A stretch of 64,000 bases of DNA from Lacibacter luteus (lineage in GTDB: Bacteria > Bacteroidota > Bacteroidia > Chitinophagales > Chitinophagaceae): NCBI RefSeq assembly GCF_004118265.1, contig NZ_SDHW01000001.1, positions 1,426,001 through 1,490,000 on the forward strand, in the 5' to 3' direction. The position numbers were made by a program, and so were the translations under genes. Position 1 is the first letter of the stretch; every line of letters begins with the position of its first letter. Of the stretch, positions 51,661-62,973 are shown in pieces. Under the pieces are notes generated by a model. It was not told where the DNA came from, ran no database searches, and worked only from the letters and a program-made list of their open reading frames with translations.

Positions 51661-51964
51661 TCCAGTTTTTTTATTCGTTTGTTAGTTAAAACAGTTCTGT
51701 CTCCACCATCTAATAGTCTACCAAAAATATAGAGTATTTTTTATACAACAAGCATTTTATTCAACATTCTCTACTATTTTTGTAGAATAATAGCAATCGT
51801 ATTGCGGTGCGATAGATTTCTGCAGGTATTCCGTTACCAATAATTACAGGCAGCCGGTTTTTCCGCTCCTTTCGCATACTATCATATCATGCAAACACTT
51901 TTGCTCTCATGATCGACTCAAGCCTCCTGTTTTCACAGGAGGCGCTTTAAAAAAAATCTGCAAT
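51661..51964. other. divergent intergenic region with two possible promoters
   Basis: Minus strand: TATTTTTG (51722-51729) with TTG 19 bases upstream (51749-51751) could serve the aldo/keto reductase. Plus strand: TATTTTTG (51775-51782) sits inside the palindrome CTAC-N7-GTAG. A strong hairpin GCCTCCTGT-TTTC-ACAGGAGGC (51922-51943) lies 22 bases before the RBBP9-like gene. Confidence 0.45.
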
Positions 51965-52507: not shown

Positions 52508-53269
52508 TCAATGCTTTGCTGTGTTTTTGCGAAAGTCGAGTTGATGAAAATAGAAAACCCTTGCAATATGCAAATTTCTATACTTGTTACCAGCAGCCTG
52601 CTGCTGAAATAAATTCATATATCCAAGCTGCAGGTTATCGTGTTTGTTTACATGATAATGAAAGCCGGCAAAAAAACGATTCTGATCGAACACATTGTAA
52701 GTGATCTCACGGCCTGCATTTACAAACACTTCATTTGAAAGTACAAACGAAAAGCTTCCCGGCTTAAACGGCGTGGATCTGTTCAATGCAAACTGCGAAA
52801 GAATATTATAGCGGAAACGGAAATTGAAATTGTAACCATCAGCCAACGCATCATCATTTAAAATTTTTCTGCGAAAGCGTTCTTCCAAACGAATCCACTG
52901 CATCAGTTTAATGCGTGGATATTTTGCATGCCATTGCAACTGTTGCCAGGGGCGATGTTCGGGCTGTGAAATGTTTTTATGGTTATCGGCAGGAAAATGA
53001 TTGATGAATGCATAACCTGCTGTAAGTTTTACATCGTTCGATAAATAATAAGTAATACCCGGTCGTATTACAACCTGCGAAAGATGATTGAAAAAATTTT
53101 CTTTTGTGCGTACATGCACATCTGTCCAAACGCCCCATTTATTACTGAATCTTGTTTGATTGAAATAACCTGTCCACAATTGCTCTTCTTCTGAAACTAT
53201 TTTCTGTTGAGCATCTACATTCTGCAACAACAAAAAAGCAACAACTGTTAAAGCTAAGATTGGTTTCAT
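52508..53269 (-). CDS. DUF2490 outer-membrane protein (paralogue A)
   Basis: 253 residues with a signal peptide (to VDAQ). EEQLWTGYFNQTRFSNKWGVWTDVHVRTKENF, the ITYYLSNDVKLTAGYAF strand pair and RLEERFRRKI are typical of DUF2490, predicted to be a small outer-membrane barrel. A second member is at 57795 inside the sulfite-reductase operon. This gene starts 13 bases after the 3' end of tRNA-Cys on the same strand, so it probably depends on the tRNA transcript or on read-through from the receptor gene. Confidence 0.85.
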   Translation of the reverse strand: MKPILALTVVAFLLLQNVDAQQKIVSEEEQLWTGYFNQTRFSNKWGVWTDVHVRTKENFFNHLSQVVIRPGITYYLSNDVKLTAGYAFINHFPADNHKNISQPEHRPWQQLQWHAKYPRIKLMQWIRLEERFRRKILNDDALADGYNFNFRFRYNILSQFALNRSTPFKPGSFSFVLSNEVFVNAGREITYNVFDQNRFFAGFHYHVNKHDNLQLGYMNLFQQQAAGNKYRNLHIARVFYFHQLDFRKNTAKH

Positions 53270-53282
53270 TTTATTTGTATTG

Positions 53283-53353
53283 ACGCTGCAGCCGGAATCG
53301 AACCGGCGTAAAAGGTTTTGCAGACCTTTACCTCACCTCTCGGCCATGCAGCT
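53283..53353 (-). tRNA. tRNA-Cys (GCA)
   Basis: 71-base cloverleaf on the minus strand: anticodon stem AAGGT/ACCTT with loop CTGCAAA (anticodon GCA), T arm GCCGG-TTCGATT-CCGGC and discriminator U73, which is the cysteine identity base. CCA is not encoded. The acceptor stem pairs in six positions, but the outermost pair is A1 against G72, which is unusual. Confidence 0.93.
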
Positions 53354-53356
53354 GTT

Positions 53357-53390
53357 TTAAAAAGCATCCCGAAGAATCGGGACGCTGCTT
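53357..53390 (-). terminator. hairpin between TonB receptor gene and tRNA-Cys
   Basis: Stem built on TCCCGA-TTCT-TCGGGA, followed on the minus strand by a T run. Only a few bases separate it from the tRNA 5' end, so it is either the receptor terminator or a processing/attenuation structure. Confidence 0.7.
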
Positions 53391-53429: not shown

Positions 53430-56012
53430 TTATAGTGTGTATCGAATAGTTATACCATACGTTGCCTGATCGCCAAGTACAGCAGCATAATGCCCTGCAT
53501 TACCACCAGCAGGTAAAAGTTGTTCGTAGTAATTCTTATTGAAAATATTGCGTCCCCAGATAAAAGCTGAGAAGCCGCTGTTAACTGCACGAAAACCAAC
53601 TCTTCCGTTAACCAATGTATATCCATCAATATTCAGGTATGCAGATGGCGATGGGCTCGAAGAAAAAGAAGAACGGTAAAAACTCTCTACTGCAATAAAG
53701 AATTTTGCAGGCTTATCTAAAAATGTAGTGGCTTTCGTAAACTCACCACCTAACGATCCCGACCATTTAGAAATACCCGGCAGCACGCCACCGGAAATAT
53801 CCTTGAATGCTTTCTGCACACCATTCTCAGTTAATCCTGTTTCTTCAAGTGGCAATGGAGCATTTGTAAATTTTACATATCTCGCATCTGTATAAGCCAA
53901 TGCTCCGTAGAATAAGAAATGACTGTTTACTTTATAGTTTGCATCAACTTCAACACCTTTTACATTTACCTCTTCTGCATTGGCAATGTAGCCACGGTTA
54001 ACACCTAACTCAGCAGACTGCACATTGGTTTGATAGTTTTTAATGTTTGTATTGTGAAATACGAGATTGAAAATAAAATTATCTGTCGGGTTTGTTTTAA
54101 CACCTATTTCGTAATGCCTTACATCTTCAGGTTTAATTACTGCGAGATCAGTTGCAGCAACACCATTAACGGTTGGCAAGCCGGCCACATTTACACCAAC
54201 AGGTTTAAAACTTGTTGAATAAGTTGCAAATGCATTGATCTGCTTATTGGGTCGGTACGATACGGTAAGCTGGTAGGTAAGATTATTTTCTTCAGCATTG
54301 GCCACATAAGACTGGCTGGTATACACCCCATTCTTAAATCCCTGCAAAGTTGTTTTTTGAGCAGTTGTACCATTATACGTTGCAGTATCTAAACCACCTG
54401 ATGCAATACGATTGTACACAACATCTTTCTTATCGTAATTATAACGCAAGCCGGGTAAGATGTGAAAACCCTCTGCAACTTCCCAATCAACATTTGCAAA
54501 AACTGCTGCACTCTTCGATTTAATGGAAGCTTTTGTATTGATGCCAAAACCTTCGAACAAACCAGGCGTTTTCCAAAGATCACTTGTTGTGCTTTGTGAA
54601 AAGCGCCATTGTGCAGAACCTGATTCTTCAGTACCATTGATCTTTACTTCCTGGTCGATATAGAACAAGCCAACAACACCACTTAAACGTGAAGATATCT
54701 GTCCGGCATAACGCAGTTCCTGCGACCAGTTCTGATGCTTGGCCGGGTTTTGCGATTTTGATAAAGCCTGTAATCCGGTAAAGTCCCTGTCGTTCGATGG
54801 ATCCCAATTCCAATAGCGCCATGCTGTTGTTGAAGTAAGTGTACCGGGACCAATCTTACGTTCAATGTTTAACGATACGCCACCTAAATCGTTACCCGAA
54901 TTCCAGGGCACATCATGATCAATCTTACGATCAAACGCATTTGTGCTTGGCAGTGAATAATTCAGATCGGCGATGATTGCATTAAACTGCCGATAAGCTG
55001 CACGTTTTGTTTGCACCACACCTGCTACTACCTGTGCATATCCATCAGGACGCTGACGGGAAAGATCGCCTGCAAGTGTAATAGAAGTATTAGTTGTCGG
55101 TTTAAACAATAACTGACCACGAACACCGAGGTTATTAATATCATTCGTATACTTTCCGGTGCGAACATTTTCGATCAATCCATTACGCTGTGTACCGGAG
55201 AAAGAAAGACGTCCGGCAATTTTTTTTGCCAATGCACCTGTTATTGAACTCTTCGCCTGTATGTATCCATAGTTACCATAACTCACTTCGAAATTTGCAC
55301 CCGGATTAAAACTTGGCTTACGTGTAGTAATGTTGAATGCACCTGAAGTGGTATTCTTTCCAAACAATGTTCCTTGTGGGCCACGTAATACTTCTATCTG
55401 TTCAATATCAATAAAATCAAGTGTTGCTGCAGCAGGCCGTGCAAAATATACACCATCAACATAAAAACCAACACCGGGATCAAGACCATCATTTGTAAGA
55501 CCAAATGGCGAACCTAAACCACGAATATTAATACCTGTATTACGAGGGTTGGATGTATACAGCTGCACACTTGGTATCAGTTCTTTTAAACGGTTTACAT
55601 TGAATGCACCCGCATTTTCTACCTGCGAACCTCCTACAACAGAAATAGCAATAGGAACATTCTGTGCTGTTTCTATTCTGCGTCGTGAGGTGATCACTAC
55701 TTCCGACAACTGGCTGTTCTCTACCAACAATATGTGCAGCACACTATCCTTCAATTCAGAAATCACAACATCACTGGGCGAATAACCAGCCGAAGTAATT
55801 TGTAATGTGAAGGGTAACTGTTTTGGTGCAGGAATAGCAAACTCACCTTTACCATCGGCAACAGCAAAAACAGTTGAACCTAGAATTTTAACTGTGGCAG
55901 ATTCAACAGGAATCCCCTTGCCATCTTTAATAATTCCTTTTAAAACAGCCTGACTTTGTGCTGTAAGTGTTGCTCCGATAAGCAACAGAATAAAAAATAA
56001 ACTCTTTCTCAT
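53430..56012 (-). CDS. TonB-dependent receptor, putative sulfur-regulon member
   Basis: 860 residues from ATG 56012 (MRKSLFFILLLIG, signal peptide to AQSQ). A carboxypeptidase-regulatory-like domain (VLKGIIKDGKGIPVESATV, about 24-100) precedes the plug (VVITSRRRIETAQNVPIAIS, LKELIPSVQLYTSNPRNTGI, NIRGLGS, VYFARPAAATLDFIDIEQIE, VLRGPQGTLFGKNTTSGAFN) and a barrel ending GITIRYTL. It resembles single-component receptors rather than SusC, and no SusD partner is present. The ligand is unknown; the operator and cysteine-codon leader upstream suggest an organosulfur compound or another nutrient needed when sulfur is scarce. The frame extends 36 codons further upstream, but that part overlaps the leader region. 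Confidence 0.9.
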   Translation of the reverse strand: MRKSLFFILLLIGATLTAQSQAVLKGIIKDGKGIPVESATVKILGSTVFAVADGKGEFAIPAPKQLPFTLQITSAGYSPSDVVISELKDSVLHILLVENSQLSEVVITSRRRIETAQNVPIAISVVGGSQVENAGAFNVNRLKELIPSVQLYTSNPRNTGINIRGLGSPFGLTNDGLDPGVGFYVDGVYFARPAAATLDFIDIEQIEVLRGPQGTLFGKNTTSGAFNITTRKPSFNPGANFEVSYGNYGYIQAKSSITGALAKKIAGRLSFSGTQRNGLIENVRTGKYTNDINNLGVRGQLLFKPTTNTSITLAGDLSRQRPDGYAQVVAGVVQTKRAAYRQFNAIIADLNYSLPSTNAFDRKIDHDVPWNSGNDLGGVSLNIERKIGPGTLTSTTAWRYWNWDPSNDRDFTGLQALSKSQNPAKHQNWSQELRYAGQISSRLSGVVGLFYIDQEVKINGTEESGSAQWRFSQSTTSDLWKTPGLFEGFGINTKASIKSKSAAVFANVDWEVAEGFHILPGLRYNYDKKDVVYNRIASGGLDTATYNGTTAQKTTLQGFKNGVYTSQSYVANAEENNLTYQLTVSYRPNKQINAFATYSTSFKPVGVNVAGLPTVNGVAATDLAVIKPEDVRHYEIGVKTNPTDNFIFNLVFHNTNIKNYQTNVQSAELGVNRGYIANAEEVNVKGVEVDANYKVNSHFLFYGALAYTDARYVKFTNAPLPLEETGLTENGVQKAFKDISGGVLPGISKWSGSLGGEFTKATTFLDKPAKFFIAVESFYRSSFSSSPSPSAYLNIDGYTLVNGRVGFRAVNSGFSAFIWGRNIFNKNYYEQLLPAGGNAGHYAAVLGDQATYGITIRYTL

Positions 56013-56098
56013 TTCAATTAATTTAAACAATAAGTATTTCGTACCGAACCGTAACAAGCCGGTGCAGTTGTAATGAATAATGCTATAGGAAACAATGG

Positions 56099-56179
56099 TT
56101 AACGCATGCAGAAACAACATCGTGTTGCCGAAGTAAACTGCATGACCAGGTGCGCATTAAGGTGGGTTATCTGTTTCAT
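56099..56179 (-). CDS. candidate cysteine-codon leader peptide
   Basis: A 26-codon open frame on the minus strand starting at ATG 56179 (MKQITHLNAHLVMQFTSATR) and ending Arg-Cys-Cys-Phe-Cys-Met-Arg then TAA. It begins eight bases after the -7 box, so it would be translated from the very start of the mRNA. Three cysteine codons (TGT, TGT, TGC) sit among the last six sense codons. The receptor gene starts 86 bases after its stop. This layout is that of an amino-acid-sensing leader peptide. I cannot identify a database family. Confidence 0.6.
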   Translation of the reverse strand: MKQITHLNAHLVMQFTSATRCCFCMR

Positions 56180-56183
56180 TTAT

Positions 56184-56219
56184 CCTACAAATTTAGTAGG
56201 GTAATATATTCCTACCAAA
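56184..56219 (-). promoter_or_regulatory. overlapping promoter and tandem operator of the TonB receptor gene
   Basis: Minus strand: -33 TTTG (56216-56219), a 20-base spacer and -7 TAAATTTG (56188-56195). The -7 box lies inside the palindrome CCTAC-TAAATTT-GTAGG (56184-56200). The -33 box lies inside a degenerate second copy (CTATTAATTTGGTAGG, 56211-56226). A repressor of the Rrf2 type (IscR/CymR-like) binding here would block RNA polymerase; that identity is inferred from site shape. Confidence 0.65.
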
Positions 56220-56263
56220 TTAATAGACTTTTATTTTTCATTATTTTTTTCCCCGTTATAAAA

Positions 56264-56320: not shown

Positions 56321-57808
56321 TTAGAAAACTTTTACGAGAATACGCAGGCTCCAGATAATTACGAGAATACCCAGGAGAATGAAAGCTGTTTTCCTTGGCA
56401 TTTTACCTGCTAGTTTTGCCGCAATAGGCGCTGCTATAAAACCACCCAGCATTAATGCAACAATTACCTGCCAATGCGTAACACCCAATAATGTAAAGAA
56501 GGTGAATGCACTCGCCAGTGTTACAAAGAACTCAGTCAGGCTTACAGAGCCTATTACATATTTCGGGCTACGACCTTTGTTAATAAGCGTAGTTGTAACC
56601 AATGGGCCCCAGCCTCCGCCGCCAAATGAATCTAAAAAACCGCCGGCACCTGCAAGTGCACTGTAACGTTTAAATTTCTTTTGTTGACGTTGCTCACGAA
56701 ATGCATTGATCAAAAACTTTACACCCAAAAACAACGTATAACAAGCCAGTAACGCACGCAACCAAAAAGCATCTTTATTACCCAACCATGTTAACAACAC
56801 TGCACCGAGTATAGCGCCAATAACACCGGGTATTACCAGCGCTTTGAATAATTTTTTATTAACGTTTCCAAAACGATAGTGACTGTAACCAGATGCTGCA
56901 CTTGAAAAAACTTCGGCAGTATGCACTGCACCGCTAATGGCTGCAGGACTAACACCAGCCGACAACAACACCGTTGCACTGGTTACACCATAACCCATGC
57001 CCAACGCACCATCAACCAGCTGTGCAAGAAACCCTGCAAGCATTAACCAATGAAAATTTTTATCGAGTGTTTGATAAAAGGTTACTGTATCGTTTGCAAT
57101 TTGCCTGAACGGTATGTACGAAAAAATGAAGTGACCGATCAGCATTAACGCAAACGCAAGCAAGGAATAAGTGGCAACTTTTTTCCATTTCTTCTCTGTA
57201 CCAACACGATCATTCTCCACCAATACTTTTGTAATGGAGTTGAGCTTTTTTACTTTGTATTCAAAATTGCCGTTGAGCTTATTACGAACCTTGTGCAGGT
57301 TTTCAATTACTTCATCCAACTCATCGGGCAATGCATCGTGTAATACTTCTTTAATCCGTTTGGCTGCAGTTGGCGATTTGCCGTTTGTAGAAATAGCAAC
57401 TTTTAAATTGCCCTTTTGTACAATGCTGCCTAAATAAAAATCGCAGAGATCGGGAGTATCAGCAACATTTACCAGCAACCCTTTTGCTTTTGCCAACACA
57501 CGCACTTTTTCATGCAGCTTATGATCGTCGGTAGCAAGTATAACCAGGTCTTTATTTTCAAGATCAGTTTCCTCAAAAGCTTTCTGAACAATTTCGCAGG
57601 AAGGGTGCTTCCAAACCAAACGACGAACATCTTCTTTTACCACAGGTGCAACAATGGTAACAGCTGCATTGGGCGAATTGGCAAGTAAAGAATGTAGTTT
57701 TTCTAATCCTACATTACCTGCACCTACCAATAACACACGCAACTCCTCCAGCTTTAAAAAAACCGGGTATAAATTATTTTTTACGGTTACTGTATTAGTT
57801 GTTTCCAT
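56321..57808 (-). CDS. fused precorrin-2 dehydrogenase and TauE/SafE-type sulfite exporter
   Basis: 495 residues. Residues about 12-200 form a sirohaem-synthase N-terminal domain (LYPVFLKLEELRVLLVGAGNVGLEK, LVILATDD, VNVADTPDLCDFYLGSIVQKGNLKVAISTNGKSPTAAKRIKE), which oxidises precorrin-2 to sirohydrochlorin and may insert iron. After a linker helix near 210-230, residues about 250-495 are a TSUP/TauE/SafE membrane domain (LVDGALGMGYGVTSATVLLSAGVSP, GGFLDSFGGGGWGPLVTTTL). The two halves would place cofactor synthesis for sulfite reductase and sulfite efflux on one polypeptide. It overlaps the upstream DUF2490 gene by 14 bases. Confidence 0.9.
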   Translation of the reverse strand: METTNTVTVKNNLYPVFLKLEELRVLLVGAGNVGLEKLHSLLANSPNAAVTIVAPVVKEDVRRLVWKHPSCEIVQKAFEETDLENKDLVILATDDHKLHEKVRVLAKAKGLLVNVADTPDLCDFYLGSIVQKGNLKVAISTNGKSPTAAKRIKEVLHDALPDELDEVIENLHKVRNKLNGNFEYKVKKLNSITKVLVENDRVGTEKKWKKVATYSLLAFALMLIGHFIFSYIPFRQIANDTVTFYQTLDKNFHWLMLAGFLAQLVDGALGMGYGVTSATVLLSAGVSPAAISGAVHTAEVFSSAASGYSHYRFGNVNKKLFKALVIPGVIGAILGAVLLTWLGNKDAFWLRALLACYTLFLGVKFLINAFREQRQQKKFKRYSALAGAGGFLDSFGGGGWGPLVTTTLINKGRSPKYVIGSVSLTEFFVTLASAFTFFTLLGVTHWQVIVALMLGGFIAAPIAAKLAGKMPRKTAFILLGILVIIWSLRILVKVF

Positions 57809-62956: not shown

Positions 62957-62973
62957 CCTACTCTGCAAGTAGG
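62957..62973 (-). promoter_or_regulatory. putative sulfur-regulon operator upstream of cobA
   Basis: Palindrome CCTAC-N7-GTAGG. On the minus strand ACCCTACT-N6-GTAGGATAA is identical in all 17 non-spacer positions to the site before the TonB receptor gene. It lies 19 bases before the cobA start codon. Confidence 0.65.

Follow-up and report, generated by a model that had tools for sequence, protein, structure and literature searches.

A cysteine-ended short frame behind a palindromic operator and before a TonB-dependent receptor gene in the sulfur locus of Lacibacter luteus: a probable cysteine-supply leader peptide

A short frame ending in clustered Cys codons, located between a palindromic operator and the gene of a TonB-dependent receptor, probably encodes a leader peptide for cysteine supply, which would attenuate expression underneath a palindrome-binding repressor, presumably of the Rrf2 type. 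It has two features of a cysteine-responsive attenuator: its Cys codons are clustered near the frame end, and it is placed before sulfur assimilation genes. The analogy drawn by the first-pass annotation was to cysteine-codon leaders in Actinobacteria. "The window" denotes the whole 64-kb stretch of DNA analyzed here. The receptor leader comprises the following features:

56210..56228, minus strand: imperfect first copy of the operator-like palindrome, GTCTATTAATTTGGTAGGA, 27 nt ahead of the second, a spacing shared by L067 and L096
56216-56219, minus strand: TTTG, the -33 box, in the first palindrome
56184..56200, minus strand: second operator palindrome, exact CCTAC-N7-GTAGG, CCTACTAAATTTGTAGG
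56188-56195, minus strand: TAAATTTG, the -7 box, in the second palindrome, N20 from TTTG
56179..56099, minus strand: leader frame of 26 codons, MKQITHLNAHLVMQFTSATRCCFCMR, with its ATG at 56179
56120..56122, minus strand: CGA, a rare Arg codon immediately 5' of Cys-Cys
56119-56114 and 56110-56108, minus strand: Cys codons of the leader
56013..56098, minus strand: gap from leader stop to receptor ATG, richer in C than in G, with a predicted hairpin at 56040-56064
53430..56012, minus strand: TonB-dependent receptor, 860 aa (Pfam plug and barrel), with sulfur genes nearby

A 26-codon frame ending RCCFCMR, with its ATG 8 nt past the -7 box, and a receptor start 86 nt beyond the leader stop had been described in the first-pass annotation, and both are found there (receptor ATG at 56012). 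Of the near-consensus promoter that it proposed, the boxes and the N20 spacing are present, but the match by itself is not above chance: TTTG-N19-21-TAnnTTTG occurs twice in the window versus a mean of 1.87 in shuffles. Similarly, of the two CCTAC-N7-GTAGG copies said to contain the boxes, only the second matches exactly, the first being imperfect. The window contains eight ATG frames of 14-60 codons that have at least three Cys among the last eight residues, the leader included. Taken by itself, the window makes neither the promoter pattern nor the Cys-ended frame stand out; the significance of the leader frame derives from its relatives and not from window counts. Rfam gave no match near the gathering score for the receptor leader, and NCBIfam none for six leaders. 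The mechanically called receptor ORF starts at 56120, within the leader; a receptor with such an N-terminal extension was rejected, as a stop closes the extension in all six other Lacibacter-group genomes.

Family models place the receptor inside a cys locus. The minus-strand row consists of metY, a metX-like gene, homoserine dehydrogenase, cysH, cysD, cysN, cobA, cysJ, cysI, a DUF2490 gene, a CysG-TauE fusion, the leader, the TonB receptor, a tRNA-Cys, and a second DUF2490 gene, where the metX and cysJ proteins score under the equivalog cut-offs. In the neighbour table, 22 of 76 loci have a DUF2490 relative at +1 or +2 from the receptor. The receptor itself distantly resembles siderophore receptors in PDB and NCBIfam searches, under every NCBIfam cut-off; among the best 80 of 247 receptor loci, the nearest named relative is Lacibacter cauensis, with a receptor 92% identical. 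The fusion gene (window 56321-57808, minus strand, 495 aa) joins the N-terminal part of a siroheme synthase to a TauE/SafE sulfite exporter.

Further copies of the operator lie in the same region:

62957..62973, strand not assigned: exact palindrome copy, CCTACTTGCAGAGTAGG on the minus strand, before cobA
51717..51733, strand not assigned: operator-like palindrome before an aldo-keto reductase (AKR) gene, with another at 51770-51786

Both palindromes before the AKR gene are looser copies. The exact form CCTAC-N7-GTAGG occurs at three places in the genome, which is not above the reversed control (five), and all three, before the receptor, cobA and cysD, fall within 9.1 kb of the sulfur locus. 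In relatives, the operator takes the general form GTCTAY-N7-RTAGAC and was identified with at most two mismatches in 69 of 80 receptor regions versus 46 of 366 controls; part of the control matches are one and the same site, read from a divergent gene. L080, L084 and L100 carry an extra operator copy between leader and receptor. As a separate observation by eye, runs of about 6-8 T occur upstream of the receptor in L076, L080, L084, L159-L164 and L178, past the leader region and ahead of another copy of the operator.

Of 80 receptor loci, 16 encode a relative of the organism's own CymR-like Rrf2 protein (L147), 11 of them directly before the receptor. The own protein passes the Rrf2 superfamily model (117.3 versus 73.3 bits) and is not a CymR equivalog (63.6 against a cut-off of 195). 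The earlier idea of an operator with repression is thus supported, by the three exact palindromes in the sulfur locus and by the Rrf2 gene in 16 of 80 loci; from this gene linkage, the palindrome-binding repressor would most likely be the CymR-like Rrf2 protein.

The main evidence for the leader comes from receptor upstream regions. We combined the best 80 of 247 receptor loci with 36 loci from genus and order searches, which had found the receptor in 9 of 14 genomes for the genus and in 35 of 298 for the order, with overlap between the two sets. Removal of three copies and one short region left 111 upstream regions, each 300 nt or longer. Under a single rule, shaped on the same data and asking for 14-60 codons and a Cys cluster close to the frame end, 48 of these 111 regions hold such a frame versus 9 of 361 control genes (p = 1e-25, not corrected for phylogeny). 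When the receptor regions were shuffled 40 times in 2-base blocks, 1.55 of 111 held a frame on average and never more than 4; clustering at 80% identity leaves frames in 39 of 92 regions. Five of the nine frame-positive controls come from receptor loci themselves: two AKR genes, two genes of SusC-like receptors, and one PBP-like-clustering gene. Because the rule was shaped on these data, the earlier, simpler counts carry weight: at least three Cys in the last seven residues were found before 21 of 80 receptors versus 7 of 366 controls.

In a test blind to cysteine, the first ATG frame past the operator was taken regardless of its Cys content; 81 loci were considered, of which 16 lacked an operator, 16 lacked a frame, and one was too short. 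At least two Cys in the last seven residues were present in 20 of 48 frames versus 6 of 250, and Cys made up 79 of 384 codons among the last eight versus 33 of 608 of the remaining codons. Conservation of the small frame and its Cys codons, named beforehand as a point on which the reading could fail, is found in 48 of the 111 receptor regions under the single rule and is absent in the other 63. Several Cytophagales loci have the operator so near the receptor ATG that no space is left for a leader.

Holders of the frame include Chitinophagaceae, Mucilaginibacter, Daejeonella, and Flavobacterium. The peptide ends vary (RCCFCMR, RCCMCNC, RCCC, ACCCCR, CCCCCC, MMCMC), and so do the peptide bodies between genera; what persists, judged from these sequences, is the Cys codons and not any single motif. 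Six Lacibacter-group genomes have a leader of 26 codons, all with RCC plus at least one further Cys, and the seventh (L154) has one of 24 codons ending in RCC; across genera, the frames show in-frame length changes with the Cys clusters retained. Counted by codon position, the variable columns of the six Lacibacter-group leaders (13/7/19 of 25 each, p = 0.03) point weakly to coding constraint, and two Flavobacterium sets (10/10/14 and 0/3/2) hold little coding signal.

The motif search suggested in the first-pass annotation (RCC-x-C) proved to be mostly noise, and for this reason we relied on receptor orthologues. A degenerate DNA search for RCC-x-C-M matched 197 of 294 family genomes, and as leaders these matches were discarded: of ten loci read closely, all but the window's own appear by eye to lie inside other genes, for example inside a metG-like gene in L019 and L023. 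A looser search of the genus matched all 14 of its 14 genomes and was just as noisy, yet revealed the leader of G296. In the own genome, ATG-N36-66-CGATGTTGY occurs at 91 places versus 51 in the reversed control. Two large TonB receptors, SusC-like by eye, have Cys-ended frames upstream and are possible further members: L112 6018-9086 (minus strand, Pfam plug domain), whose frame ends RSACCCC, and L075 15425-18568 (plus strand), whose frame ends STYCCC.

Among the 26 frames with RCC, the Arg ahead of Cys-Cys is encoded by CGA in 23, or in 21 of 24 without two second genome copies. In long ORFs, CGA accounts for 1,136 of 14,313 Arg codons and for 7 of the 71 Arg codons that precede Cys. The own genome has 53 Rfam tRNA matches, all but three of which were called by ARAGORN; the Arg anticodons called are ACG (twice), TCT, CCT and CCG, none being TCG, and the three uncalled matches are of other kinds when read by eye. 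Such an anticodon set would be consistent with an inosine anticodon that reads CGA slowly. According to PMC4046918, CGA led to a high degree of stalling and strong de-attenuation in the his leader of Salmonella.

A second leader precedes the metY cluster of the same genome and of its genus:

L004 7183-7296 and 6865-7041, minus strand: SAM-I riboswitch and Cys-ended leader before metY, two putative sensors in series

Here the order is SAM-I riboswitch, terminator-like hairpin, a frame ending MQCCCICCMP, and a 100-nt gap (23 C, 12 G), such that the leader lies between the riboswitch and the metY-metX-hom-cysHDN cluster. The riboswitch is a plain member of SAM-I (RF00162), scoring 80.2 bits in the own genome and 75.4-84.8 in six relatives (gathering 44.4), and differs in having the Cys leader behind it. 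A riboswitch above gathering together with a Cys frame before metY was present in all seven genus genomes examined out of 14, six of them chosen for their receptor and G296 for the leader already revealed by the genus search. The most distant, L298, has a metY leader ending LQCCCMRCCMP through an in-frame insertion. Three conserved hairpins lie before the Cys codons, over the stop and past the stop; their covariation is almost nil (1 pair of 19), because the metY-leader sequence hardly varies. The leader body has no codon-position bias (23/18/17), therefore only the frame and its Cys end look selected.

Outside the genus, Cys frames were found in 2 of the 15 cysH upstream regions listed (L302, with CGA, and L304), many of the others lying within operons. 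Further Cys frames stand before AKR genes in L114 and L133, and before metY in L117. Rfam matched none of L117, L301, L302, L304, L305 and L306; thus, the tandem of SAM and Cys elements is documented for the Lacibacter group alone.

From these findings, the following course of events may be proposed. With sulfur plentiful, the palindrome-binding repressor would hold the promoter. Once transcription is on, a ribosome would translate the small frame, nearly leaderless if the transcript begins at about 56183, as the usual Bacteroidota promoter spacing would predict. Given enough Cys-tRNA, it would finish and leave, and the naked gap, richer in C than in G, would keep receptor expression low, perhaps along with the tRNA-Cys and the DUF2490 gene behind the receptor. 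When Cys-tRNA is scarce, the ribosome would stall at the Cys codons, sharpened by the slow CGA just ahead, and the receptor would be expressed; cysteine shortage would probably switch on the sulfur and methionine genes of the metY cluster through stalling as well. Both stalling at low cysteine and the direction of control are what we infer from the layout of the locus.

With regard to the effector step, Rho-dependent antitermination may be somewhat favored over translational opening. The 48 gaps between leader stop and receptor ATG have a median length of 86 nt and an excess of C over G of 0.098 per nt versus 0.027 in controls; receptors lacking the frame also show a raised value, though less so (0.054), and Flavobacterium gaps contain about 1% G. 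This composition would suit Rho loading onto unstructured RNA in the absence of a held ribosome, and also a plain unstructured initiation region. Translation may be the level of control, as the first-pass annotation had it; a transcriptional step of the Rho type fits the gap at least as well.

In leader attenuators of the his, trp and mgtL type, codons of the sensed amino acid stand near the end of the short frame, and the receptor leader resembles them in this respect. That it works as a classical trp/his-type attenuator, by an intrinsic terminator with an antiterminator, is nevertheless unlikely. Folding of seven Lacibacter-group genomes places a hairpin some 30 nt upstream of the receptor ATG in every one, despite differing sequence; in L154 this hairpin is a strict terminator, and the metY leader has its three conserved hairpins. 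But the gap in the window has no recognizable intrinsic terminator, only 1 of the 48 gaps contains one (0.2 expected), and the G-poor Flavobacterium gaps speak against the idea too. Moreover, folding with the ribosome at three positions gave no antiterminator or other switching structure; a ribosome placed on either the first Cys codon or the stop codon leaves the same hairpin predicted downstream of it.

Another view, to which we attach a low probability, is that the nascent peptide itself is the sensor, its Cys cluster binding metal or sensing redox within the ribosome like CruR/CutF for copper. CruR is likewise a leader frame before a TonB-dependent transporter gene and acts via Rho-dependent termination, as far as excerpts of PMC9973294 describe it; a Cys-Cys-x-Cys end could bind metal, and the distant likeness of the receptor to siderophore receptors, below the NCBIfam cut-offs, would suit such a role. 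Unlike CruR/CutF (DUF2946), however, the six leaders tested match no NCBIfam family, spacing and number of Cys are not fixed, the peptide body is not conserved between genera, and the surrounding genes concern sulfur rather than copper, with similar leaders preceding metY, cysH and AKR genes in sulfur loci. Least probable is a chance frame, untranslated or without role behind a real promoter and operator, as eight such frames in the window, the weak or absent codon-position signal and the 63 frameless receptor regions might suggest, against which stand the 48 of 111 regions versus 9 of 361 controls, the at most 4 of 111 in shuffles, and the Cys clusters kept through in-frame length changes.

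The leader peptide for cysteine supply, our preferred reading, has its nearest counterpart in the polycysteine leaderless short ORFs of mycobacteria, reportedly described by Canestrari et al. in 2020. Judging from the parts of PMC9031893 and PMC13236596 that treat these polycysteine leaders, both kinds have a short frame, for the receptor leader a predicted one at or very near the mRNA start, clustered Cys codons, sulfur genes behind, and an expected sensing of cysteine supply. Unlike them, the Bacteroidota leaders precede an outer-membrane receptor, lie behind an Rrf2-type operator or a SAM-I riboswitch, often have CGA before Cys, and in some cases share the row with a tRNA-Cys. Among the papers listed by full-text literature searches, judged mostly from title and opening of the abstract and with subscription journals largely out of reach, none described cysteine-codon leaders in Bacteroidota; leader attenuation before amino-acid operons is reported from Flavobacterium psychrophilum, with no link to cysteine in the sections of PMC9723704 consulted. 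If our reading is true, a Cys-ended frame would be a readable mark for sulfur-regulated importers among the many TonB receptors of Bacteroidota, and sensors of SAM and Cys would form a natural serial pair.

Tentatively, and with considerable doubt, the leaders might be extended to a Bacteroidota cysteine-leader regulon over several families, in which fast-changing Cys-ended peptides, often primed by CGA, form two-input gates with the element ahead of them, an Rrf2 operator for the receptor, cysH and AKR and a SAM-I riboswitch for the metY cluster. The row in Chitinophagaceae would in addition encode a tRNA-Cys open at 1:72, so that the operon under control would itself supply the tRNA that reads the sensor. 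The features behind the receptor are:

53364..53385, minus strand: terminator-like hairpin GCGTCCCGATTCTTCGGGATGC with T5 behind it, in the interval from receptor to tRNA
53282..53353, minus strand: tRNA-Cys (GCA) called by ARAGORN, with an A1.G72 mismatch, 76 nt past the receptor stop
52508..53269, minus strand: DUF2490 protein (Pfam), the next gene in the row

The tRNA-Cys starts 10 nt past the terminator-like hairpin and 5 nt past its T run, and no promoter between hairpin and tRNA was recognized by eye. An ordinary second tRNA-Cys, with G-C at 1:72, is located elsewhere in the genome. A tRNA-Cys behind the receptor on the same strand was found in 13 of 116 loci scanned, some with short downstream sequence, apparently from 11 genomes, all of which carry a leader with CGA-Cys-Cys. 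Positions 1:72 of the receptor-linked copies are A.G in 10 of 11 and U.G in L162. We compared 13 distinct sequences, including the ordinary copy, L112b and L267, the last of which is located away from the receptor. Here 15 of 20 cloverleaf pairs change on both sides, and 94.2% of cells are paired versus 79.3% in shuffles; 1:72 lacks a standard pair in 11 of the 13, the exceptions being the ordinary copy (G-C) and L162 (U-G). Thus, 1:72 apart, the cloverleaf strongly covaries, which supports a tRNA-Cys. The missing first acceptor pair raises a direct question on the role of the receptor-linked copy.

With at most one mismatch, the A1.G72 pattern occurs in 3 of 395 phylum genomes sampled, all in the family of the window. 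Five genus genomes for which the search gave no receptor carry the ordinary tRNA-Cys alone. Among genomes with the receptor, G292 has no such tRNA-Cys, and G297 and two pieces of G301 have neither a tRNA-Cys beside the receptor nor a recognized leader; therefore, the tRNA-Cys is not essential to the receptor. G213, also with the receptor, has a tRNA-Cys with an insertion in the T arm. The receptor-linked tRNA-Cys copies of L152 and L260 carry a T-arm insertion.
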